From contig DAIDKV010000083.1 in the NCBI GenBank assembly GCA_027449865.1, forward strand, positions 1-44,966: a DNA stretch of 44,966 bases, in the 5' to 3' direction. The position numbers were made by a program, and so were the translations under genes. Positions 10,865 through 24,399 of this stretch are shown here, in pieces. Source of the DNA: Planctomycetales bacterium. Lineage in GTDB: Bacteria > Planctomycetota > Planctomycetia > Isosphaerales > Isosphaeraceae. Each line of letters starts with the position of its first letter. Position 1 is the first letter of the stretch. The notes under the pieces are model-generated. The model was not told where the DNA came from. It searched no databases and saw nothing but the letters and a program-made list of their open reading frames with translations.

Positions 10865-11509
10865 ATGTACTTGGGCTTTGGGCGGAGCCTGAATTTGCGA
10901 GCGAAGCGTACGTGGCTAGTGGCCGCGTGTGCGGTGCCACTGTTGCTCACCGTGGCAACAGTTCCGGCCCTCGCCGATTGTGGATGTGGCAAGCACTGGC
11001 CGCATCTCGTCTGTCGCAAATTTCTCGGACATTCCGTGGGACCGGGCGATATCGCGGACGAGGATGCGGGCGGCCACTGGATGTGGGTGCGCAGTCCTGA
11101 GCAGGAGCGGCGGGTCGCGATGACCCTCTTCAATCGCTACTGCATCCGTTGTCATAGCGTGGATGGGCGCGGTATCTGGGACATTCCTGACGTTCCTGAC
11201 TTCGCCAATGTTGTTTGGCAGAACACCCGTCCCGACGAGTATCGTGCGCGAGTGATCATCGAAGGACGAGGCGCCGTCATGCCATCGTTCCGAGGGATCA
11301 TCACGGTCGAGGAATCCTGGGCTCTGGCTCGATACCTCCATTCGTTCCTGCCTGGTCAAGAGGTTTCGCGTCCTGGCCTTCGTCCGCCAGGCTCGGTGCC
11401 GGGTGTTACGCAAAACGCGCCAACTTCCACACCCACGGCACCGACTCAGCCAACGCCAGCCGCCCCTCCGCCGCCGGCCCCCGCGGCTGCCGCCCCTGCC
11501 CCACGCTAA
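10865..11509 (+). CDS. Secreted monoheme cytochrome c with Pro/Ala-rich tail
   Basis: A 214-residue exported cytochrome c. Signal peptide residues 1-37 (cleavage ALA-DC). A small Cys cluster follows at C39, C41 and C50. The heme site CIRCH is at 93-97, followed by DGRG, an IPDVPDF stretch, and the likely axial Met139 in AVMPSFRG. Residues about 175-214 are a Pro/Ala/Thr-rich low-complexity tail. The heme domain closely resembles both domains of the diheme protein at 14923-16389, sharing CH-x-x-DGRG, PDF and the LMP/VMP region. The ATG is preceded by GGAGGAG at a short distance. It is separated from the porin gene by a terminator-like hairpin (11657-11706), so it may form its own transcript. 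Role: periplasmic electron carrier, partner inferred from context. Confidence 0.88.
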   Translation: MYLGFGRSLNLRAKRTWLVAACAVPLLLTVATVPALADCGCGKHWPHLVCRKFLGHSVGPGDIADEDAGGHWMWVRSPEQERRVAMTLFNRYCIRCHSVDGRGIWDIPDVPDFANVVWQNTRPDEYRARVIIEGRGAVMPSFRGIITVEESWALARYLHSFLPGQEVSRPGLRPPGSVPGVTQNAPTSTPTAPTQPTPAAPPPPAPAAAAPAPR

Positions 11510-11612
11510 AGCCAATTTCGCTCATATTTCGACGAACTCTAAAGAGATCCCATCCACGACGCGGTTCAACAAACGCTCGACCCGAACAGCAGTTCTGGCG
11601 AGCGGAAACATA

Positions 11613-11710
11613 GGGAAAATCGGAAAGCCCGTTTTCCCACGAAATCCTTTCATTGTAGCCCGTCGCCTGCTTGCCTTCCCCAGGGCAAACACGCGGCGGG
11701 CTTTTCTCGT
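11613..11710 (+). terminator. Rho-independent terminator-like hairpins
   Basis: Two hairpins in the 489-bp gap between the cytochrome and the porin gene. The first is GGGAAAA/TTTTCCC (11613-11619 with 11632-11638). The second pairs AGCCCGTCGC (11657-11666) with GCGGCGGGCT (11693-11702), with one G-U pair, encloses an inner TTGCC/GGCAA stem, and runs into TTTTCTCGTT. The second is a good intrinsic terminator for the cytochrome transcript. The rest of the gap (11711-11998) shows no gene. Confidence 0.6.
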
Positions 11711-11998
11711 TACTGGGGAGTCTGGTGCCCGTGGCCAATCGAACCTACAACCCTGATAATCCGCAGAGATTTCCTGGGTCAATCACGGCGACTTTGCCGA
11801 TATTTGGGGCATTAACCGTTCTCTCGACTGCGCCGGCCAATTCCCTATCAAGCATCAGTCGGATTGGTGCGTATTCTCGACCCGCATGACATCGGTGTCT
11901 GTAGGTCCTGAGTTGGTCCGGTCGAACCGCTCACGTGGCAATTGCCGGGACAGTCGAGACTAAACTCCCGAGGTTGGGAGGCGGCGGGGGACTGGCAT

Positions 11999-13702
11999 AT
12001 GCGGACTTGGCCGGTCGGTGTCATCGTCGGTTGTCTTGTCCTTGTCGTCCGGACGAATGGGGCCGATGGCGATCCGCCACCGCTCCAGTCCGGCACGCAG
12101 GTTCCTGGAGCTCAAGCAAAGGCCGAGGCCTCCACCACGCGGACCGAGGAGTCCAAACTCCTGGCGACGGTCCAGGAGGCGCTCGAGCGCAATGCTCGCG
12201 AGATGAAAGCCCTGAAAGAGCAGTATGCCAAGGAACTGGAATCGCAACAAAAAAGAGCCGAGGTCCAGCAGAAGCAAATCGAGACGCTTCAGCAGATGAC
12301 GAGGACCCTCGAGGACCGGCTCAAGGCCGTGAACGCGGCGCCGCCCGTCCTGGCCCCGCTACCAGGGGCCCAGCCGAACGCGGGTGGGGCCGGGGCTCAG
12401 CAAAAGCTATCCGACGTCCAGCAGAAGCAGTTGGAGCTGGTCGAGGAGCAGATCGGTGCGTTGTCGGACGAACTCGGTCAGCAGACGCCCAAGCTTGAGG
12501 ACGTCGTCTCGCAGGCGGCCACGCTCGATTCCCGATCCAAGCAGGCGGCAGCCCGAGACCGCCAGCTCGGGGAGACGGTGGACACGCTCCGCGATCAGGT
12601 GAACAATCTTCAACGCAACTATCCCAACTTGCCGCCGCCATTGAAGGAATGGTTCTTGCCGAGCGGTACGAATGTGACCCCGATCTCCATCTGGAACACG
12701 GTCTCAACGCGGTACGAGGTCTTCCAGGGCCAGCGCGGAGCCGGTGAGTTCCAGTTCCAGGAATACACCCCGTTTTTCCTGGTGCAACTCAACAAACGAT
12801 TGCTGCTCTCGGCCGAGACGACGTTCGATCAGGGCGGCGTGGGCCTGGGACAAGCACAGATCGATATGTTTATAAATAATTGGCTGACGATGGATGTCGG
12901 CTACTTTCTGGCCCCGATCGGGTTCTGGAACGAGCGGCTCGACCCCCGCTGGATCAACAAGCTGCCCGACATTCCCCTGGTCATGCGACAGGTCATCCCA
13001 GATGGTTTAACGGTCACCGGACTTCAGTTCCGCGGAGCCAAATATCTCTTCGGCAGTCCCTTCAAGATGGAGTACGCGGCCTTTGCCTCGAATGGATTCG
13101 GCGTTCCCGGGTCTGGCAAGGCAGCCGACTGGGCCGATCAGGGTGGCCTGATCGGGACCACCGCGAATGTCAACCAGTCGATGGCCTATGGCGGACGGCT
13201 CGCCATCTGGCTGCCGTCCCGCGGTATCAATTTTGGTGCGTCGGGGATGGCCAGTGCCCCCTACGGACTCGGGGCTGGACCGGTTTACAACATCTGGCAG
13301 CCGTACTTCAATTACCACTACGGCAACTGGGATTTCCGGTTTGAATACGGTGAAGCCTATCAGAACGTCAAGAACTTCATTGGCAACAACATTCGTCGTC
13401 AGGGCATGTACGCTCAGCTTGCCTACCGCAACTATGCCTCGCTCTACCAGCATCTTCAGAGACTTGAGTATGTCTTCCGGTTCAGCGACGCGTTCTTCCA
13501 CGGGATTGACCAGTCGAAGCTTGACCTGACGGCGTATTCACCTCTGATGAATGCTCCAATCGATGCCAACCAGTACACGATCGGCGTCAACTACTACGTC
13601 TATGCCTCTTCGATCATCAAGTTTGCCTACGAGATCAACTCCCCGCTTCACCGAAATGTCAATGACAATGTCTTCATGATGCAATTCGCCACGAACTTCT
13701 GA
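11999..13702 (+). CDS. Outer-membrane porin-like protein with N-terminal coiled coil
   Basis: A 567-residue protein. Residues 1-22 are a signal sequence. Residues about 53-112 and 135-207 are heptad-rich coiled coils (for example EMKALKEQYAKELESQQKRA) separated by a Pro/Ala linker. From about residue 225 to the end the sequence is rich in alternating aromatic/hydrophobic strands with Gly and Asn turns, as in OprP/phosphate-selective-type porins, and the last residue is Phe (MMQFATNF), the usual beta-barrel assembly signal. The chosen ATG at 11999 has GGGGGA upstream; a TTG at 11942 is rejected. It is followed after 51 bp by a cytochrome lipoprotein, so the two are probably co-transcribed. The coiled coil may span towards peptidoglycan or form a trimer. 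Channel substrate is unknown. Confidence 0.82.
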   Translation: MRTWPVGVIVGCLVLVVRTNGADGDPPPLQSGTQVPGAQAKAEASTTRTEESKLLATVQEALERNAREMKALKEQYAKELESQQKRAEVQQKQIETLQQMTRTLEDRLKAVNAAPPVLAPLPGAQPNAGGAGAQQKLSDVQQKQLELVEEQIGALSDELGQQTPKLEDVVSQAATLDSRSKQAAARDRQLGETVDTLRDQVNNLQRNYPNLPPPLKEWFLPSGTNVTPISIWNTVSTRYEVFQGQRGAGEFQFQEYTPFFLVQLNKRLLLSAETTFDQGGVGLGQAQIDMFINNWLTMDVGYFLAPIGFWNERLDPRWINKLPDIPLVMRQVIPDGLTVTGLQFRGAKYLFGSPFKMEYAAFASNGFGVPGSGKAADWADQGGLIGTTANVNQSMAYGGRLAIWLPSRGINFGASGMASAPYGLGAGPVYNIWQPYFNYHYGNWDFRFEYGEAYQNVKNFIGNNIRRQGMYAQLAYRNYASLYQHLQRLEYVFRFSDAFFHGIDQSKLDLTAYSPLMNAPIDANQYTIGVNYYVYASSIIKFAYEINSPLHRNVNDNVFMMQFATNF

Positions 13703-13753
13703 CCGCGGCCCGGTCTCTGGATCGAACGCACAGATCGAGGAAGGGGGACGAAG

Positions 13754-14305
13754 ATGACACGTCAAAACTCCGGGTCGATGGGTCGTCGGGCGATTCTGCT
13801 GGCGGGATTGGGGCTGACCTTTGGTGTTGTGGGCTGTGTCCACTCGCCAATTGATCTCTCGGAGGGGCCCGCGCCCTGGCGTATCCCGCGTCCAGGCCCG
13901 GATGCGCCAACTTACGAGGATTCGCTGACCGGTGGCGAGGTCTTCGCGATGTACTGCAACCAGTGCCACAACGCACGTGCCCTGGGTGAGCGGCCTTTCG
14001 CCAATTACCAGAACGTGGCGGCTCACATGCGGGTGCGAGCCAATTTTACGGGTGAGGAATACGAGAAGCTGCTGACGTTCCTCCGCCGCTGGCACGATAT
14101 TCCAAACCCGACGCCGCCGTTCGAGCCATCGCCGAAGCGGGTGATTCCGCCCCAGCCCATCAACGAGCTCCGTGACGAGATCATTGCCCAGCCCAAGCCG
14201 ACCGAGCCCGCCGACGAGAATGGCGGCGGGCCCGGTGCTCCGGTCGCCAATCCGGCGGCGCAACCGCCGTCTCTGGAGCCCATCCCGGTGGGTGCGCCGG
14301 GCTGA
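13754..14305 (+). CDS. Monoheme cytochrome c lipoprotein
   Basis: A 183-residue lipoprotein. The lipobox is FGVVGC with the lipidated Cys at 28, so the mature protein starts there and is membrane-tethered. The heme motif CNQCH is at 68-72 within SLTGGEVFAMYCNQCHNAR. The rest (about 80-115) is a short helical cytochrome domain (HMRVRANFTGEEYEKLLTFL), and the last 65 residues are a Pro-rich tail. No clear distal Met follows the heme in the usual place, though M93 in AHMRV could serve. GGGGGACGAAG precedes the ATG. It is 51 bp after the porin gene. Whether the lipid anchor holds it to the inner or outer membrane cannot be told from sequence; Val29-His30 after the Cys is not an Asp retention signal. 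Confidence 0.87.
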   Translation: MTRQNSGSMGRRAILLAGLGLTFGVVGCVHSPIDLSEGPAPWRIPRPGPDAPTYEDSLTGGEVFAMYCNQCHNARALGERPFANYQNVAAHMRVRANFTGEEYEKLLTFLRRWHDIPNPTPPFEPSPKRVIPPQPINELRDEIIAQPKPTEPADENGGGPGAPVANPAAQPPSLEPIPVGAPG

Positions 14306-14334
14306 ACCAATGAGGACAATCGGGCGCAGGATAA

Positions 14335-14356
14335 GGGGCCGGCCGTCGCCGGCCTC
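14335..14356. terminator. Hairpin between convergent genes
   Basis: A 7-bp perfect stem GGCCGGC/GCCGGCC (14337-14343 with 14348-14354) with a 4-base loop, extendable by a G-U and a G-C pair to 14335-14356. It lies in the 58 bp between the tail of the cytochrome lipoprotein gene and the tail of the leftward secreted-protein gene. It has no T-run. A shared transcription-end structure is the likely role. Confidence 0.5.
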
Positions 14357-14363
14357 TATCGAA

Positions 14364-14825
14364 TCATTCGGGGTGATGATGGGGCCGGGCGGGGATCAGA
14401 TACGGTGACGGCCAGGGCGTTCCTCTCGGCTGTCCATGGACCGTCGTACGCCAGCCGATCGTTCCATCCGGCTCAACAACCTTGTAATGACGAGGATGGT
14501 TGAGCCAGGGGGTGTAGTAGTACGAGAATGTCCGAGGAATGGGAGTCTGCTGGGCATGCAATCCCCAGTCGGAATTGTGGCCGTACCGGAAGAGTCTGGT
14601 GCCAAATCGCCATCGATTCACGGGCGCGTTTGGGTCGGGCGCGATGTTGACGTCCGGGCCGGGAACGTACATCGGATGGACCTCGGCAGGGATCACCTCA
14701 GGGCTCACAACCTCCACTGGCTGGACCTCGGACTGGGCCCGGGCGATCGTGGGTCCGGCAGTCGCCAGGCCCAGAAACAGAAAGAGCCGGGCCGACGCCC
14801 GGGCTTGGCTTGCGAGAGTTTTCAT
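14364..14825 (-). CDS. Small secreted protein of unknown function
   Basis: A 153-residue protein with a signal peptide (residues 1-27, cleavage near ARA-QS). The mature part begins with a Pro/Val/Glu-rich stretch and continues with an aromatic-rich segment (SYYYTPWLNHPRHY), ending in a His-rich tail (ARPHHHPE). No family is recognised. The start at 14825 has AAGGAGG 9 bp upstream, which excludes earlier in-frame ATGs at 14846 and 14915. It lies 97 bp after the diheme cytochrome and is the last gene on this strand of the ACIII block, so it may be co-transcribed. Confidence 0.7.
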   Translation of the reverse strand: MKTLASQARASARLFLFLGLATAGPTIARAQSEVQPVEVVSPEVIPAEVHPMYVPGPDVNIAPDPNAPVNRWRFGTRLFRYGHNSDWGLHAQQTPIPRTFSYYYTPWLNHPRHYKVVEPDGTIGWRTTVHGQPRGTPWPSPYLIPARPHHHPE

Positions 14826-14922
14826 GGCAAATGCCCTCCTTGACATCGATTCGGACTCGATGATCTTCATCGTGAATCGTGCCGACCGTCCCCGCGTAGG
14901 ACGGTCGGCACACAATCACCGT

Positions 14923-16389
14923 TCAATGGCCGGAAAGCGCACGGGCCTGGCGGTCCAGCTCCTCCCATTGCTGGTGAAGCTGCTTCATCCGGGTGCCGAA
15001 ATCCGTCGTGGACGGCCCGCTCACCGCGAGGCCGGCCGGACCAAACGTCCGGACGAATGCGACCAGATCGCGGGCCAGATTGGGATCGACCTTGCCGCGC
15101 CAGGCTGGCATCAGCGTTCCCTTCCCTTCCAGGATACTCATCACAAGCTGGGAATCCTGGTGAGTCTTGTGAAAGTCGCCCGACGTGAAATCCGGGATCA
15201 CCGGCATGGCCGGCCGAACGGCACTCCCCCGGCCATCCATCCCATGGCAAGGGATGCAATTCACGCTGAAGAACGCACCGCCGACCTTGGCCCGTTCCGA
15301 AACCGCGGACGAAGCACCTCCGGCCATGGCAATGGCTGGGACCGGGCTCAGTGGGGTCGGTGATGCCGCCGATGGTGTCGGAGCCAGGCTTGGCGCGGTT
15401 GGTAAAGTCACCGGCGCCGCGGCCAGGCCTGGCGCGGTCGGTGGAGTCACCGGCGCCGGTCCCGTTGGGGCTGGTGAAGGTGTGGCTGCCGCGGCGGCCG
15501 CCGGCGCAGTCCCGGCGCGACCAGGTTGGAACGAGCGAATGAACGCGACCATGTCCTTGACATCGGTATGCGCGAGTTCCAACTTGTCCTTCATCGGCAG
15601 CATCAACTGCCCCTTACCCTGCAAAATCGAATGAGTCAGGTCGGCGTCGGTACGACTCGCCTGCCACTTCGGATCCGTAAAATCTGGAATCACCGGCATG
15701 GCTTTCCGCACGACACCGCCCCGGCCGTCGAGGTCGTGGCAGGCGAAGCAGACGGCGCGGAACAATTGGACGGGTGCCATTCCGCCTGGAGCCGGGGCGG
15801 GCGCGGCTACCGGCGCCGGGGTGGCGGCGGGCGCGGTCGTCATCACGACGTTGGCGGCGACCGCCGGTCCCGCCGGTGGCGCTGTGGCCGCCCCATTGGC
15901 CGCGGGTGCTACCGGCGCACTCGCCGCGGGTGCGGGAGCACTCACAGGCGTCGAGAGCGTTCCCAGCATGGGCGCCGGTCGCCCGCCCTCGGCGGCGGAG
16001 AGTTCCATCGCCCGGTCGATCGGGATTCGATATCCGGGGGATGTAGGACTCGGCGCACTGTAAGTGGTCAGTACCTGCTGATCCTCGGCACGCAGTTCCT
16101 CGATTCGCCTGGTTTTGACCTGATCATTCGCGCTCGCCGGAGCTGTTGCACCAGGTGGATTTGTCAGCGTTGTCGTGAACAGGTACGTCACCCACACGAC
16201 CCCCGCCGTGAACACCAGATGCGCCAGTGCCCTCGACGCGGCCGAGGGACGTCGGCCGCGGGGGTTCGTCCGGGCGGAGGCCAGGCGTCGCACCATCCGC
16301 TGGTTGGCCGATCGAGACGGACTCAGGTCTCCGTCGACTCGGCTCAACGCCTCGGCTGGGCCTTGCCCTTCCAACCTACCGGATAACAT
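14923..16389 (-). CDS. Membrane-anchored diheme cytochrome c (two tandem c-type domains)
   Basis: A 488-residue protein. A basic cytoplasmic N-terminus is followed by one transmembrane helix (about residues 54-74, ALAHLVFTAGVVWVTYLF). A long Pro/Ala-rich linker (about 140-205) leads to heme domain 1 (CFACH at 214-218, likely Met266 ligand in LPMKDK). A second Pro/Ala linker (about 290-355) leads to heme domain 2 (CIPCH at 378-382, likely Met in TLMPAWRG). Both domains share CH-x-x-DGRG and MPVIPDF, so they are an internal duplication. The ATG has GAGGAGAG upstream and lies 12 bp from the actF stop, so it is part of the ACIII operon. Likely role: accepts electrons from ACIII and relays them on flexible tethers to an oxidase or another periplasmic acceptor. 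Confidence 0.88.
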   Translation of the reverse strand: MLSGRLEGQGPAEALSRVDGDLSPSRSANQRMVRRLASARTNPRGRRPSAASRALAHLVFTAGVVWVTYLFTTTLTNPPGATAPASANDQVKTRRIEELRAEDQQVLTTYSAPSPTSPGYRIPIDRAMELSAAEGGRPAPMLGTLSTPVSAPAPAASAPVAPAANGAATAPPAGPAVAANVVMTTAPAATPAPVAAPAPAPGGMAPVQLFRAVCFACHDLDGRGGVVRKAMPVIPDFTDPKWQASRTDADLTHSILQGKGQLMLPMKDKLELAHTDVKDMVAFIRSFQPGRAGTAPAAAAAATPSPAPTGPAPVTPPTAPGLAAAPVTLPTAPSLAPTPSAASPTPLSPVPAIAMAGGASSAVSERAKVGGAFFSVNCIPCHGMDGRGSAVRPAMPVIPDFTSGDFHKTHQDSQLVMSILEGKGTLMPAWRGKVDPNLARDLVAFVRTFGPAGLAVSGPSTTDFGTRMKQLHQQWEELDRQARALSGH

Positions 16390-16401: not shown

Positions 16402-17631
16402 TCAAGAATTGTGGAACGCCATCGATTCCGCCAGGCGGGGATCACCAATCGGTAGGAGGGGTCGGGTTCGACCCGCCCAGGCCACAATCGCGCCGCAGAT
16501 CGACACCAGCATCACCAGGATCGAGAGATCCAGCCAGTTCGGACCGCTTGCCGCGCGTTGACATCCCGGCATGATGATCCAGTAGAGGTCGATGTAGTGA
16601 AAAATGAGGATCCAACCGGCGACCAGCGCGAGCCAGACCGGGTTTCGCTTCGTCGCGCGGAACAGCAGCAGCAGGAAGGGCACGGCGAAGTGCCCCAGGA
16701 CGAGCGCCCAGCTCAGGGCGTTCCAGGTCCCCTCGCGTCGGATCGCATACCAGCGAGTCTCCTCGGGAAAATTGGCGTACCAGATCAGGAAATACTGGCA
16801 GAAGGCGATGTAGGCCCAGAAAATGACGAATCCAAAGAGCAGTTTGCCAAGGTCGTGCAGGTGCTCGACACTGACGGCCTCACCGAGCCAACCGGCCGAG
16901 CGGCAGCCGATCGTCAAGAGTGTCAACGTCGCGAGCGAGCCCAGGATCGAACCCGCCCAGAAGTAGACGCCGAACATGGTCGAGGTCCAGTGCGGATCGA
17001 TCGACATCAGCCAGTCGAATCCGGCCAGACTCGCTGTATGCGCCAGCAGTAGCAGTCCCCAGGCCGACGACCCGACCATTCGGCGTCGGATCGATCGGTC
17101 CCTGGACTGATCTTGCTGTGTCGAGAGTTGGGTCATTCTCCAGGCGATCAGGGACCAGGCCGCGAAGTAAATGACCGCTCGGATATCGAAGAACGTGGGG
17201 TTGAGCCAGACCGCTTTCCGCGACAGTTCGTGGTCCGACGCGACACGTGAGGGATCGGCCCAGGCGTAGATCCGGCTGAGGTTCAGGGCGACCGGTATAA
17301 ACATCCCCGCGATCCAGGGGATCGGCCGCGTGAGGTTCTCCAGCAGCCGGCGAACCACGACCGACCAGACCGCCCCGGTCAGATGCAGGAGGAGGATCCA
17401 GGCCAACGCCCCGATGCTGATGGTTGTCACGAATATCAGGCCGACCAGGTACGAGCCGGCGAGTCGGCGGCCGTCCATTCCCGGGGCAAAACCCGCGAGC
17501 ATGCCCACGGCAAACGCCACTCCAGACGCTAGCGCCAGCATCACGAAACCACGTGCCAGCCCCGCTCCAGGCGACGGAGGCAGGTGAAGCGCCAGCGAAT
17601 CGCTCTCGTTCGCGGAGGGTTCGTGATTCAT
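16402..17631 (-). CDS. actF: Alternative complex III subunit ActF (NrfD-like membrane protein)
   Basis: A 409-residue polytopic membrane protein with about ten hydrophobic segments, of the NrfD-like fold that forms a quinol-facing subunit of ACIII. Visible features are HLTGAVWSVVVRRLLEN, PVALNLSRIYAWADP, GFDWLMSIDPHWTSTMFGVY and FAQYFLIWY-type segments, the last as FCQYFLIWYANFPEE; these are typical of the ActF family. The start at 17631 overlaps the actE stop by four bases (ATGA), which indicates translational coupling and excludes an upstream ATG at 17724. The following cytochrome gene is 12 bp away. Confidence 0.9.
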   Translation of the reverse strand: MNHEPSANESDSLALHLPPSPGAGLARGFVMLALASGVAFAVGMLAGFAPGMDGRRLAGSYLVGLIFVTTISIGALAWILLLHLTGAVWSVVVRRLLENLTRPIPWIAGMFIPVALNLSRIYAWADPSRVASDHELSRKAVWLNPTFFDIRAVIYFAAWSLIAWRMTQLSTQQDQSRDRSIRRRMVGSSAWGLLLLAHTASLAGFDWLMSIDPHWTSTMFGVYFWAGSILGSLATLTLLTIGCRSAGWLGEAVSVEHLHDLGKLLFGFVIFWAYIAFCQYFLIWYANFPEETRWYAIRREGTWNALSWALVLGHFAVPFLLLLFRATKRNPVWLALVAGWILIFHYIDLYWIIMPGCQRAASGPNWLDLSILVMLVSICGAIVAWAGRTRPLLPIGDPRLAESMAFHNS

Positions 17632-18284
17632 GGCTTCAATTCTCCCCGGATCGATTCCGGTACATCGGTAATGCCCGCGTTCTGGCTCCTGGAAAGGGCT
17701 CGCACGTAGGCGATAATCGCCCATCGGTCGCGAACCTTGATCTGCGGGCCATATGGCATCATTCGTCCCTTCCCGTTGCTGATCACATCGAAGAACTGGC
17801 CGTCCGGCATCAGGGCGTGGAGCGCATCCGTGATACCCGCGACGCCGGTCAGGCCATATTGTGTGATGACTCCATTGCCCTTACCGGTCGCACCATGGCA
17901 CGGTGCGCAAAAGATCCCATAACGTTCCTGGCCGCGCTGTAGCAACTTCATGTCGACCCGCAACGGGTTCACCGTCACCCAGGTCGTCCCCTTCTTACCC
18001 CGGTAGTAGGCATCATCCTCCCGGAGGAGGTCGGGGTTTTGCCGGGGCGAGCCGGCGTCACACTCGTAATCGGTCCCGCCGAACGGTACCGTTCCCGCGG
18101 GGGGTGTGCGCATCGCTCGCCCATCCGCGAAGAAAGGTCCCGCCGCCTGCGGGTTGTACCTCGGCTGGAAATCCATGTCCGAGAAGACCATCAGCGGGCG
18201 ACGATCGCTGACTGTCCCGCGCGTTCCCATCTCGCGGATGACCAGCGCGGTTAGCATCGCCAATCCCAGGAAGACCCACCGCAT
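17628..18284 (-). CDS. actE: Alternative complex III subunit ActE (monoheme cytochrome c)
   Basis: A 218-residue cytochrome c subunit of ACIII. An N-terminal hydrophobic helix (residues 2-17) exports or anchors it; no lipobox Cys is present. A conserved segment DMDFQPRYNPQ and a stretch LREDDAYYRG precede the heme motif CAPCH at 126-130. GATGKGNG follows the heme, and Met176 in GRMMPYG is the likely axial ligand. The gene starts 94 bp after the actC-actD stop with a GAGG somewhat far upstream, and its stop overlaps the actF start (ATGA). The heme receives electrons from the pentaheme ActA in this complex. Confidence 0.92.
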   Translation of the reverse strand: MRWVFLGLAMLTALVIREMGTRGTVSDRRPLMVFSDMDFQPRYNPQAAGPFFADGRAMRTPPAGTVPFGGTDYECDAGSPRQNPDLLREDDAYYRGKKGTTWVTVNPLRVDMKLLQRGQERYGIFCAPCHGATGKGNGVITQYGLTGVAGITDALHALMPDGQFFDVISNGKGRMMPYGPQIKVRDRWAIIAYVRALSRSQNAGITDVPESIRGELKP

Positions 18285-18378: not shown

Positions 18379-20357
18379 TCACTCGCCTCGCACCGCTTCC
18401 AGGCTTAACGCCCCCGACCCATCGAGCAGTGCGACGATCCGATCAGGGTCAAAGGCCGGATCGTCGGCATCGATCGCCAGGAAGAACCCGTCATCGGTCG
18501 CGCGGCCGAAGTCACGCCCGCGGAAGAGCGGGTGGTAGAGCCGAGGGAGCCGGTTGAGCAACAGCATCCCGAGAATCGTGCCGAAGGTCGCGTACAGCAC
18601 CATCGTCTCGAACGAGATCGGCACGAAAGCCTCGGCGCTGTTCAAGGGCTTACCTCCCGTCACCAGCGGGTAGATCGAGGTGCTCAGGTACCACTGGAGC
18701 GTTTGCGCGAACGTCACGCCCGTCAGACCCCCGACGAACGTGAAGAAGCGAACTCGCGACCGGCTCAGACCCATCGCCTGGTCCATCCCGTGGATGGGGA
18801 ATGGTGAGAATGTGTCGAACTTCCGATAGCCCGCCGCCCGAACCTGACCGGCCGCCGCCAGAAGTTCTCCGGGCGTCCCATATCGCGCCAGTACCCCATG
18901 TACGGCCGCGTCCTCTCCATCGTCCTCCACCAAATCGTCTCCGATGATCTCCATCGGACCCCGCTCCACAGGCGCTGGCTCTCCCGACGACCCATGGCCG
19001 CCCGCGTGTGGATCGGCCTGCGGCAGGAACGCCTTGACCTCGCTGACGGCCACCATCGGCACGAATCGAAGGAACATCAGGAACGCTGTCGAGAACAGTC
19101 CGAAGCCGCCGATCAGCAATGCGATATCCACCCAGGTTGGGTAGAACATCTTCCAGCTCGACGGCAGGTAATCGCGGTGCAGGCTCGTCACCACGATCAC
19201 GAACCGCTCGAACCACATTCCCACGTTCACCAGGAGACTGATCAGGAACATCGCGAACGGCGTCGTTCGGAACCAGCGGAACCAGAAGAGCTGCGGCGCC
19301 AGCACGTTGCACGCGATCATCGTCCAGTAGCACCAGGCATACGGACCGGTCGCGCGGTTGTAGATCAGGTATCCCTCGAACATGTTGCCGCTGTACCAGC
19401 CGCTGGCCGCCTCGATGGTGTAGCCGTACCCCATCAGAAGACCGGTCGCGAGGATCAGCTTGCAAAGGATCTCCAGGTGTCGAGACGTCACCACGTCTTT
19501 CAGCCCGCAGGCGACGCGGAGAGGAATGATCAGCGTCAGCACCATCGCCAGACCGGAAAAGATGGCTCCCGCCACGAAGTAAGGCGGAAAGATCGTCGTG
19601 TGCCAGCCAGGGATCACCGATGTGGCGAAGTCGAAGCTGACGATCGTATGCACGCTCACCACAAGCGGTGTCGCCAGCCCGGCCAGCATCAGGTAGCCGG
19701 TCTCATAGTTGTGCCAGTGCCGTCCCGAACCCCGCCATCCCAGCGCCAGGAATCCATAGATGTGCTGCGGAAGCCAGCGCGTCGCCCGGTCGCGTAGTGT
19801 CGCGAAGTCGGGTATCAGGCCGTAGTACCAGAACAGCGTCGATACCGTCGCATACGTCGCCACGGCCGCGAAATCCCAGGAGAGTGGACTGCGGAAGTTC
19901 GGAAAGATCATGTTGACATTGGGGGCCGGCGCCAGATACCAGAACATCCAGGCGCGGCCCAGGTGAATGGAGACAAAAAGCCCGGCGCAGGCGACGGCGA
20001 AGAGGGTCATCGCCTCGGCGAACCGATTTAGGGCCGATCGCCACTTCTGCCGGAACAGGAACAGGATCGCCGAGATCAGCGTTCCGGCGTGGCCAATGCC
20101 CACCCAGAAAACGAAGTTCGTGATGTCGAAGGCCCAGCCGACCGTCTGGTTCATCCCCCAGACGCCGATGCCGGTCGAGATCACGTAGGCCGTCATCAGT
20201 CCGCCGGTCAGGGCGGCCGACGAGCAGATGATCATCGCAATCCACCACCAGGCGGGCGCCCGCCGCTCAACCAGCCTGCATATCAGGTCGGTCAGCGAGT
20301 GGAAGCTATGATTGCCGCCGATCAGGGGCGGCTCCGTCATTTCCTCCCCGTGGCGAC

Positions 20358-20361
<4 letters not shown>
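18379..20361 (-). CDS. actC: Fused alternative complex III subunits ActC and ActD
   Basis: A 660-residue protein that joins two ACIII subunits. Residues about 1-455 are ActC, an NrfD/PsrC-type membrane protein with about ten transmembrane helices that forms a quinol site (segments GMNQTVGWAFDITNFVFWVG, SVHTIVSFDFATSVIPGWH, NMFEGYLIYNRATGPYAWCYW, NVGMWFERFVIVV). A charged, Gly/Asp-rich linker of about 30 residues follows (HAGGHGSSGEPAP...EDDGEDAA). Residues about 487-660 are ActD (DUF3341): YGTPGELLAAAGQVRAAGY, SPFPIHGMDQAMG, then two transmembrane helices. In the best-studied ACIII complexes these are separate proteins. The ATG at 20361 overlaps the actB stop (ATGA). No stop or frameshift lies between the two parts. 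Confidence 0.92.
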
Positions 20362-23476
<3,115 letters not shown>

Positions 23477-23480
<4 letters not shown>

Positions 23481-24130
23481 CGGTGACATCCTGTGCAGGT
23501 CTCCGGGGCTCGAATTCCGAACTGGTCCTTCAACGTCAGGCCATAATCCCGCTGGTTCTGACCCTGGGGCGGCTGCCACTCGAAATTCGTCGACTGGTCA
23601 GGTGGGCGGAGATGCTCCTCGGGATGCCGATGGCACTCCAGGCACCATCCCATGCTGAGCGGTTTCTCGTGGACAACCACCGGCATCTCATTGACCTTGC
23701 CGTGGCAACTCACGCAGCCCACCCCGCGACGCACATGGACCGCATGATTGAAATACACGTAGTCGGGAGTCTGGTGGACCCGCTCCCAGCGGACCGGGCC
23801 GCCACCGGCCCAGCTCACTCGGATCGCTTCCAGTTGCGGGCTGTCCGCCTTGATCGCCTGGTGGCAATTCATGCAGGTCTGGGTCGGCGGAATCTTCGCC
23901 ACCGACGATTCCTCGACTCCTGTATGACAGTAAAGACAGGACAGTCCCAGCCGTCCGGCGTGTAACTCATGCGAGTACGCCACCGGTTGCTTCGGTGCAT
24001 AACCGACACGCGTGTACTCGGGCGGGGCGTAATAGTAAAGACCCGTGATGCCGAGGACGACGGAGACGAACGCTCCGGCCATGCCTCGACGCAACCAGTT
24101 ATCCGCTCGCTGTGTGAAGATCAGTGGCAA
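23477..24130 (-). CDS. actA: Alternative complex III subunit ActA (pentaheme cytochrome c)
   Basis: A 217-residue cytochrome with one N-terminal transmembrane helix (about residues 17-34) and five CxxCH heme sites at 65-69, 86-90, 139-143, 163-167 and 212-216; the last site ends one residue before the stop. This matches the pentaheme subunit that passes electrons from the Fe-S chain of ActB to periplasmic cytochromes. I choose the TTG at 24130: GGGAGG lies 5 bp upstream and the protein then begins PLIFTQRADNWLRRG, as family members do. An in-frame ATG at 24196 would add 22 basic residues and has a weaker AGAGGG upstream. First gene of the ACIII operon. Confidence 0.9.
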
Positions 24131-24399
24131 TGGAGCCTCCCGACTGTTGGTCGGCCATCCTCCTCGGTCACTACGCCGCGACCGAGAAAGGAACATCCGT
24201 CGTCCCTCTCGAAGTCCGAACCTTGCTTCGAGGATCGAACGCAGGATCTTGCCCGTTCCCGAAGACCCGAAGGAGAAAATCGCCGCAATCGTCGAGGCGA
24301 GTGGGGCAAGAACCCCGACTCCTTCATCGCAGGTCCGAACGGCCGCCTGTTTTGTCCATGCAGCGCTGCATAGACGACGATCACATAAGTGGTTCCTGG

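Follow-up and report, generated by a model that had tools for sequence, protein, structure and literature searches.

A barrel gene and a single-heme lipoprotein cytochrome gene beside a second alternative complex III in Isosphaeraceae: a candidate split, Cyc2-like electron exchanger

We analysed a contig of 44,966 nucleotides (DAIDKV010000083.1, assembly GCA_027449865.1; hereafter the window) from a Planctomycetales bacterium of the family Isosphaeraceae, in which genes for a porin and two c-type cytochromes converge on an operon for alternative complex III (ACIII). The porin and the single-heme lipoprotein cytochrome encoded directly behind it, lipCyt, seem to us, with somewhat more confidence than doubt, to form a two-piece, Cyc2-like outer-membrane electron exchanger with a dedicated ACIII. 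The basis of this reading is the gene order, the co-occurrence of the two genes, their phylum-wide pairing, the homology of a heme-bearing tail in three quinone-complex contexts, and the predicted size of the barrel; from it we infer the outer-membrane placement, the contact between heme and barrel, the substrate and the electron transfer.

The module and its conservation within the family

The locus comprises the following genes (window coordinates; ORF, open reading frame):

10865..11509, + strand: cytA, a secreted monoheme c-type cytochrome of the CBB3 type (CXXCH motif, Pfam, alignment)
11999..13702, + strand: outer-membrane barrel (porin) with a signal-like N-terminus, a coiled coil at about residues 50-206, a 16-strand barrel at about residues 229-566 and an L3-like conserved loop (ORF, predicted models)
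13754..14305, + strand: lipCyt, a monoheme cytochrome lipoprotein of the 'HMR' family (CNQCH ... HMR; lipobox, CXXCH)
14364..14915, - strand: ORF of a small secreted protein of unknown function, with a likely internal ATG start near 14825 (ORF, conservation)
14923..16389, - strand: membrane-anchored diheme cytochrome, with an N-terminal part like the protein that follows ActF, then two CBB3-type heme domains and Ala/Pro-rich linkers
16402..17724, - strand: ActF, NrfD-like subunit of the second ACIII (36% identical to the canonical copy, without a Pfam match)
17628..18284, - strand: ActE, monoheme cytochrome subunit of ACIII
18379..20361, - strand: ActC-ActD fusion of ACIII (PF03916, PF11821)
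20358..23579, - strand: ActB, iron-sulfur/molybdopterin-like subunit of ACIII, the true start probably lying downstream of 23579
23477..24196, - strand: ActA, multiheme cytochrome subunit of ACIII (five CXXCH in the sequence)

The ACIII operon thus runs leftward from 24196 as ActA, ActB, the fused ActC-ActD (PF11821, 201 bits), ActE and ActF, and the porin stop lies 51 bp from lipCyt. All genes named in an earlier, sequence-only reading of this DNA were recovered as ORFs, the 51-bp gap included. That reading had a rightward cluster meeting the tail of the ACIII operon, which holds, except that the gene for the small secreted protein between lipCyt and the diheme gene had been overlooked; of the three cytochromes it took to be tethered, lipCyt and the diheme protein do look tethered, and cytA looks secreted.

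In a sample of 45 genomes of the window's family, where counts are per genome and include shared descent, the porin was found in 11 and lipCyt in exactly those 11, across 6 genera (Fisher p ~1e-10, relatedness uncorrected), and 10 of the 11 carriers also possess a module-type ACIII. Comparison of nine close relatives (G009, G015-G018, G020, G021, G023 and G024; G and L label genomes and loci throughout) revealed that (i) porin, lipCyt and small protein follow one another in all nine, (ii) cytA lies ahead of the porin in eight, the contig of the ninth (G015) starting just before the porin, (iii) the diheme gene faces the cytA-porin-lipCyt cassette in seven, with ActF on the same contig in five, the contigs otherwise ending, and (iv) as far as contigs reach, the convergent order is retained, with ActA-B-CD-E-F-diheme-small protein on one side and lipCyt-porin-cytA on the other. 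Contigs of metagenome-assembled genomes (MAGs) often break inside the repetitive diheme gene. Chance alone does not explain a cluster whose order nine relatives retain. Conservation of the neighbourhood had been set beforehand as the test of the sequence-only reading, and porin, flanking cytochromes and ACIII do stay together across genera.

Pairing of barrel and cytochrome across and beyond the Planctomycetota

A porin profile (A7) and a profile of the HMR cytochrome (A6) matched 46 and 81, respectively, of 392 genomes sampled from the phylum. Fifty of the best 52 HMR loci were examined, two places in G141 being left out. In 32 of these 50, an A7 porin lies directly upstream on the same strand, with a gap of 3-158 bp between the domains (in L152 the match is weak, E ~1e-4), and no other arrangement of the two was seen. 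In eight more (L135, L140, L141, L144, L154, L164, L165 and L171) this place is taken by a second, mutually homologous family with ORFs of 258 to 364 amino acids, barrel-like as judged by eye from a signal-like start, a strand-like pattern and a mostly terminal F or L, in which DUF6662 was above the cut-off in two of the four members scanned. A barrel of either family accordingly precedes 40/50 HMR genes, or 33/42 when eight loci are removed, a correction made because A6 was built from porin-linked members (seven of the 50 loci in A6, one in the module). By comparison, the porin profile had no match in 26 other respiratory loci (157 kb), as against 32 in the 50 HMR loci (192 kb), although these controls, 6 Cytochrome_C7 and 20 ACIII places, come from the window's family only, which tells somewhat against our reading. 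Across numerous families of Planctomycetota, and in Gammaproteobacteria as well, the pairing holds at ~25-35% identity amid differing flanks.

Approached from the porin side, the closer loci L089-L093, L100 and L103 each have a CBB3-like gene for a protein with one or two hemes and, L093 excepted, a small monoheme gene with the HMR motif; no cytochrome gene was seen alongside the remote porin matches L096-L098, nor next to the porin of L099. The CBB3-type cassette cytochrome profile had matches within the flanks of 11/50 HMR loci, two of them weak and to the HMR gene itself, so that cytA is no universal part of the arrangement. As separate observations, three places on contigs 20, 106 and 107 of G141 have porin and HMR matches within ~0.5 kb, genes read from the sequence as a sensor kinase and an NtrC-type response regulator adjoin the cassette in L089, L090 and L091, and on a Zixibacteria contig (L068, 785-2502) a Rieske-like gene, likewise read from the sequence, is followed directly by a distant porin of 26% identity.

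Outside the phylum, the lipCyt query retrieved a single record from a plasmid collection, Alteromonas macleodii pKD02, where 8 bp separate the end of a porin (A7 E 7e-62) from a cytochrome with an HMR-type first domain (A6 E 1e-22) and a CBB3-type second domain. Behind the pair, genes on the same strand encode, among others, two Met-rich proteins, a flavoprotein bearing a ferric-reductase NAD domain, and a cytochrome with seven hemes that matches an MtrC/MtrF domain above the cut-off. In Glaciecola, porin and cytochrome occur in unchanged order. As read from the sequence, the Met-rich proteins adjoining the Alteromonas pair (L174, 6574-8308) are secreted and suggestive of copper.

These pairs may belong to a widespread and undescribed class of split single-heme exchangers, common in Planctomycetota and present in Alteromonas, in which the barrel, drawn from two or more families, is encoded immediately ahead of an HMR cytochrome, mostly a lipoprotein, with a private ACIII or bc complex linked through a heme tail in one lineage; we offer this generalisation tentatively, doubt here slightly outweighing confidence.

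The second ACIII, the barrel fold and known systems

Judged by its sequence, the ACIII of the module is a second, diverged paralogue, ~36-55% identical to the canonical copy. The full ActA-F set is present, including ActD (PF11821) and NrfD-like proteins, ActF being recognised only by its likeness to the canonical copy. ActD was found in 41/45 genomes of the family; seven genomes have it twice, and six of these seven are porin carriers. An ActC tree groups 11 of the 12 module rows, the window included, in one clade at 100/100, to which the second ActC copies that seven of these genomes possess do not belong; the twelfth row is the diverged copy of L066, on a long unplaced branch, so that the module label needs two changes on the tree. 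With midpoint rooting, the ActC copies of G012, G015, G023 and G024 come out on the same side of the tree. The canonical ACIII of the window genome lies elsewhere (contig C211, L051), where it has the same subunit set and is followed by COX2, COX1 and COX3. The module operon, in contrast, ends in the diheme gene and faces the cassette, its small subunit appears to carry two additional heme domains, and inspection by eye of the window around the module and of the flanks of L034-L036 revealed no recognisable oxidase gene.

The diheme protein has a hydrophobic segment at residues 54-72 and two CXXCH motifs (214 and 378) joined by Ala/Pro-rich linkers. Its N-terminal part resembles the small protein encoded after the canonical ActF (37% over 41 residues, E 8e-6 in a single comparison), and on this likeness we read it as that subunit plus two heme domains. 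Homologous heme tails were found in two other settings, in more distant genomes: L066 has one on the ActE-like subunit of its diverged ACIII (42% over residues 195-486), and L063, where a Rieske gene is adjacent, has one on the cytochrome b of its bc complex (45% over 204-486). Both of these tail-bearing complexes face a cytA-porin-lipCyt cassette. The same kind of tail on ACIII and bc partners implies that both sorts of quinone:cytochrome c oxidoreductase can serve as the cassette's partner, and this sharing is, in our view, the strongest single argument that electrons may flow between the quinone pool and the cassette.

The porin (ATG at 11999, 567 amino acids) matched no Pfam family above cut-off, the phosphate-selective porin O/P family PF07396 included, a family that is matched by its remote relatives in L138 and Alteromonas. 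A search by sequence for relatives of solved structure gave nothing convincing for porin or lipCyt. A full-length model was of low confidence (predicted local distance difference test score, pLDDT, 59), with helices at 50-112 and 133-206, and strand count and fold are for this reason taken from a model of the barrel only, built with 15 sequences (pLDDT 80.9; predicted template modelling score 0.79), which shows 16 strands, the fifth of them followed by a helical loop. With VIA-align, OprO and OprP ranked first against this barrel model (Z 27, 311-319 residues aligned, root-mean-square deviation 3.2-4.0). The structure lists also hold DcaP (6eus, Z 23.4) and OmpM1; porins of the DcaP/OmpM type bear N-terminal coiled-coil stalks, and we know of no cytochrome partner for them.

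The outer-membrane routes described in the literature that we compared use either large barrels that house multiheme wires or Cyc2, an iron oxidase in which cytochrome and porin are fused. Cyc2 is described as a 16-strand barrel structurally like OprO/OprP with a single N-terminal heme; this heme is likely to block the barrel at its periplasmic end, so that Fe(II) has to come into the pore (PMC8406198). Models pair Cyc2 with ACIII, and bc1 has been proposed as its partner where ACIII is missing (PMC5566968). The resemblance of the present pair is close, in that a cytochrome with one CXXCH and a predicted 16-strand barrel of the OprO/OprP type occur together, here in two proteins, and that both ACIII and bc complexes appear as partners, and the comparison with Cyc2 made in the sequence-only reading was thus an apt one. 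The pair differs from Cyc2 in its separate ORFs, in a lipid-anchored cytochrome that comes after the barrel and in a coiled coil before the barrel, and the motif AXPXFAR[Q/K][T/Y] that precedes the Cyc2 heme site (PMC8406198) is absent from cytA, lipCyt and the diheme protein. With unfused genes and without the defining motif, the pair is not Cyc2.

The conduits of the MtrAB/MtoAB/PioAB type likewise have barrel and cytochrome in separate genes, but theirs is a 26-strand barrel with a decaheme partner (PMC8406198), as opposed to 16 strands and one heme here, the cassette cytochromes having one or two CXXCH each. The barrel family MtrB_PioB (PF11854) was found in 0/45 genomes of the family and no multiheme cytochrome is encoded among the cassette genes; a conduit of this kind was rejected, and the earlier likening to MtoB/PioB is not supported. 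The nearest precedent found is a MAG from a tunnel survey, in which an ACIII-like cluster lies downstream of a predicted porin-cytochrome complex (PMC10732223); the complex there is labelled from known porin-cytochrome complexes of iron reduction and is a possible counterpart of the present pair. No earlier description of the split pair was recognised in a literature search that covers few subscription journals. Marker-gene tools would easily miss such a pair, because the Cyc2 search of PMC8406198, for one, discards porins that lack the heme motif.

Weighing of the readings and minor constituents

In the proposed exchanger, lipCyt would be held by its lipid anchor with its single heme at the periplasmic mouth of the 16-strand barrel. 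A small substrate capable of redox chemistry, most probably iron ions or perhaps another metal, would come into the pore from outside and exchange one electron at this heme. Between the lipCyt heme and the quinone pool, electrons would be shuttled through the periplasm by soluble cytA and by the second ACIII's diheme tail with its long linkers. Outward and inward flow appear about equally likely. Outward flow, that is quinol oxidation onto Fe(III), which is downhill in acid, fits because the window genome has no RuBisCO match and because the Fe(III)/Fe(II) couple has a high potential in acid; inward flow, with oxidation of Fe(II), fits because of the comparison with Cyc2 and the published Cyc2-ACIII and Cyc2-bc1 proposals (PMC5566968). 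If the reading is right, current calls of metal redox capacity in Planctomycetota are too low. A quinone complex dedicated to the pair, ACIII or bc, opens its wiring to the cell surface to direct tests, and A. macleodii offers a cultured carrier of the pair. The conduit interpretation of the sequence-only reading is partly supported, by the conserved neighbourhood and the likeness to Cyc2, and not in its likeness to MtoB/PioB.

Several findings weigh against the exchanger. A 16-strand OprO/OprP fold also fits an ordinary anion porin, OprO and OprP being plain anion channels, and fold alone does not show function. A single heme cannot span the membrane, so that the substrate must enter the pore. 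No barrel was found within the stretch fetched for 10/50 HMR loci (in one of them, L127, a porin lies ~1.7 kb upstream, as in L091), and a lipobox-like pattern precedes the heme domain in 43/50 HMR proteins, the anchor thus not being universal. Within the family, G014 has a porin of 33% identity and lipCyt with no second ACIII beside them, and in G019 the module ACIII is present and the porin was not found, the contig ending within the diheme gene. Outside the phylum, no lipobox was found in the pKD02 cytochrome; six A. macleodii plasmids keep the cytochrome intact (98% identity) with a porin match to the last 144 residues only; the porin of A. stellipolaris is in three pieces; and on a Legionella anisa plasmid the HMR cytochrome lies between two other c-type cytochromes with no annotated porin. 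Finally, the window genome has no match to ribulose-1,5-bisphosphate carboxylase/oxygenase (RuBisCO, PF00016), which makes iron-driven autotrophy by that route unlikely.

Five of the 11 porin carriers have short RuBisCO matches above the cut-off (~165/299 positions) and none has a full-length one, and an autotrophic, iron-driven version of the proposal was dropped on these grounds. A mine habitat was also considered, as isolate codes of several carriers look mine-site-like (for instance FK2 and ZJ7; FK denotes the Fankou mine in PMC7779479); an origin in acid mine drainage could not be shown, and we retain it as a lead only.

The main rival, which we regard as unlikely, is that an ordinary anion or metal porin feeds a respiratory enzyme or a cofactor need, lipCyt and cytA being co-regulated periplasmic carriers, so that electrons do not cross the outer membrane. 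The OprO/OprP-like barrel model is in keeping with it, as are the Met-rich proteins beside the Alteromonas pair, which would suit metal handling, and the cation/copper transport genes read from the sequence near L091. It accounts poorly, however, for two barrel families with one and the same cytochrome partner in the same position, which suggests that the cytochrome works with the barrel itself, or for the occurrence of the pair beside ACIII, bc and other genes; an ordinary porin that happens to lie beside respiratory genes, the simpler option left by the sequence-only reading, becomes less likely.

Less probable again is a feed line to an oxidase or peroxidase, in which the cassette cytochromes would pass on electrons from the second ACIII and lipCyt, at the outer membrane, would detoxify oxidants that enter through the porin: CBB3-type domains in cytA and the diheme protein, and the position of some distant cassettes near a cupredoxin or genes read as heme-A synthesis, speak for it, but the lack of a recognised oxidase around the module and in the L034-L036 flanks, and the oxidase that the canonical ACIII already has, speak against it. 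Descent alone, that is a slowly rearranging block without shared function, is very improbable and disfavoured by the phylum-wide search, for although the nearest relatives also retain the genes that flank the module, the pairing itself survives low identity, many families and the step to Gammaproteobacteria.

As to the smaller constituents, cytA has a hydrophobic segment (15-41) at its signal-like N-terminus and no further one, a single CXXCH, a Cytochrome_CBB3 score in Pfam of 38.9 bits (cut-off 27) and a Pro/Ala-rich tail, while lipCyt has the lipobox VVGC at residues 25-28 and one CXXCH, and matched no Pfam family up to E 0.01. A stretch CxCGKxxPHxxC...H ahead of the heme domain of cytA (residues 39-59, window 10979-11041), possibly a metal or disulfide site, is kept in 8/8 close cytA rows; the cytA-like proteins from L063, L064 and L066 showed no such stretch. 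The small secreted protein, whose window copy had no match in Pfam or NCBIfam, is encoded in the module of all nine close relatives and has a C-terminus conserved around PRxxSY...W.N.PRH...WR.TV.

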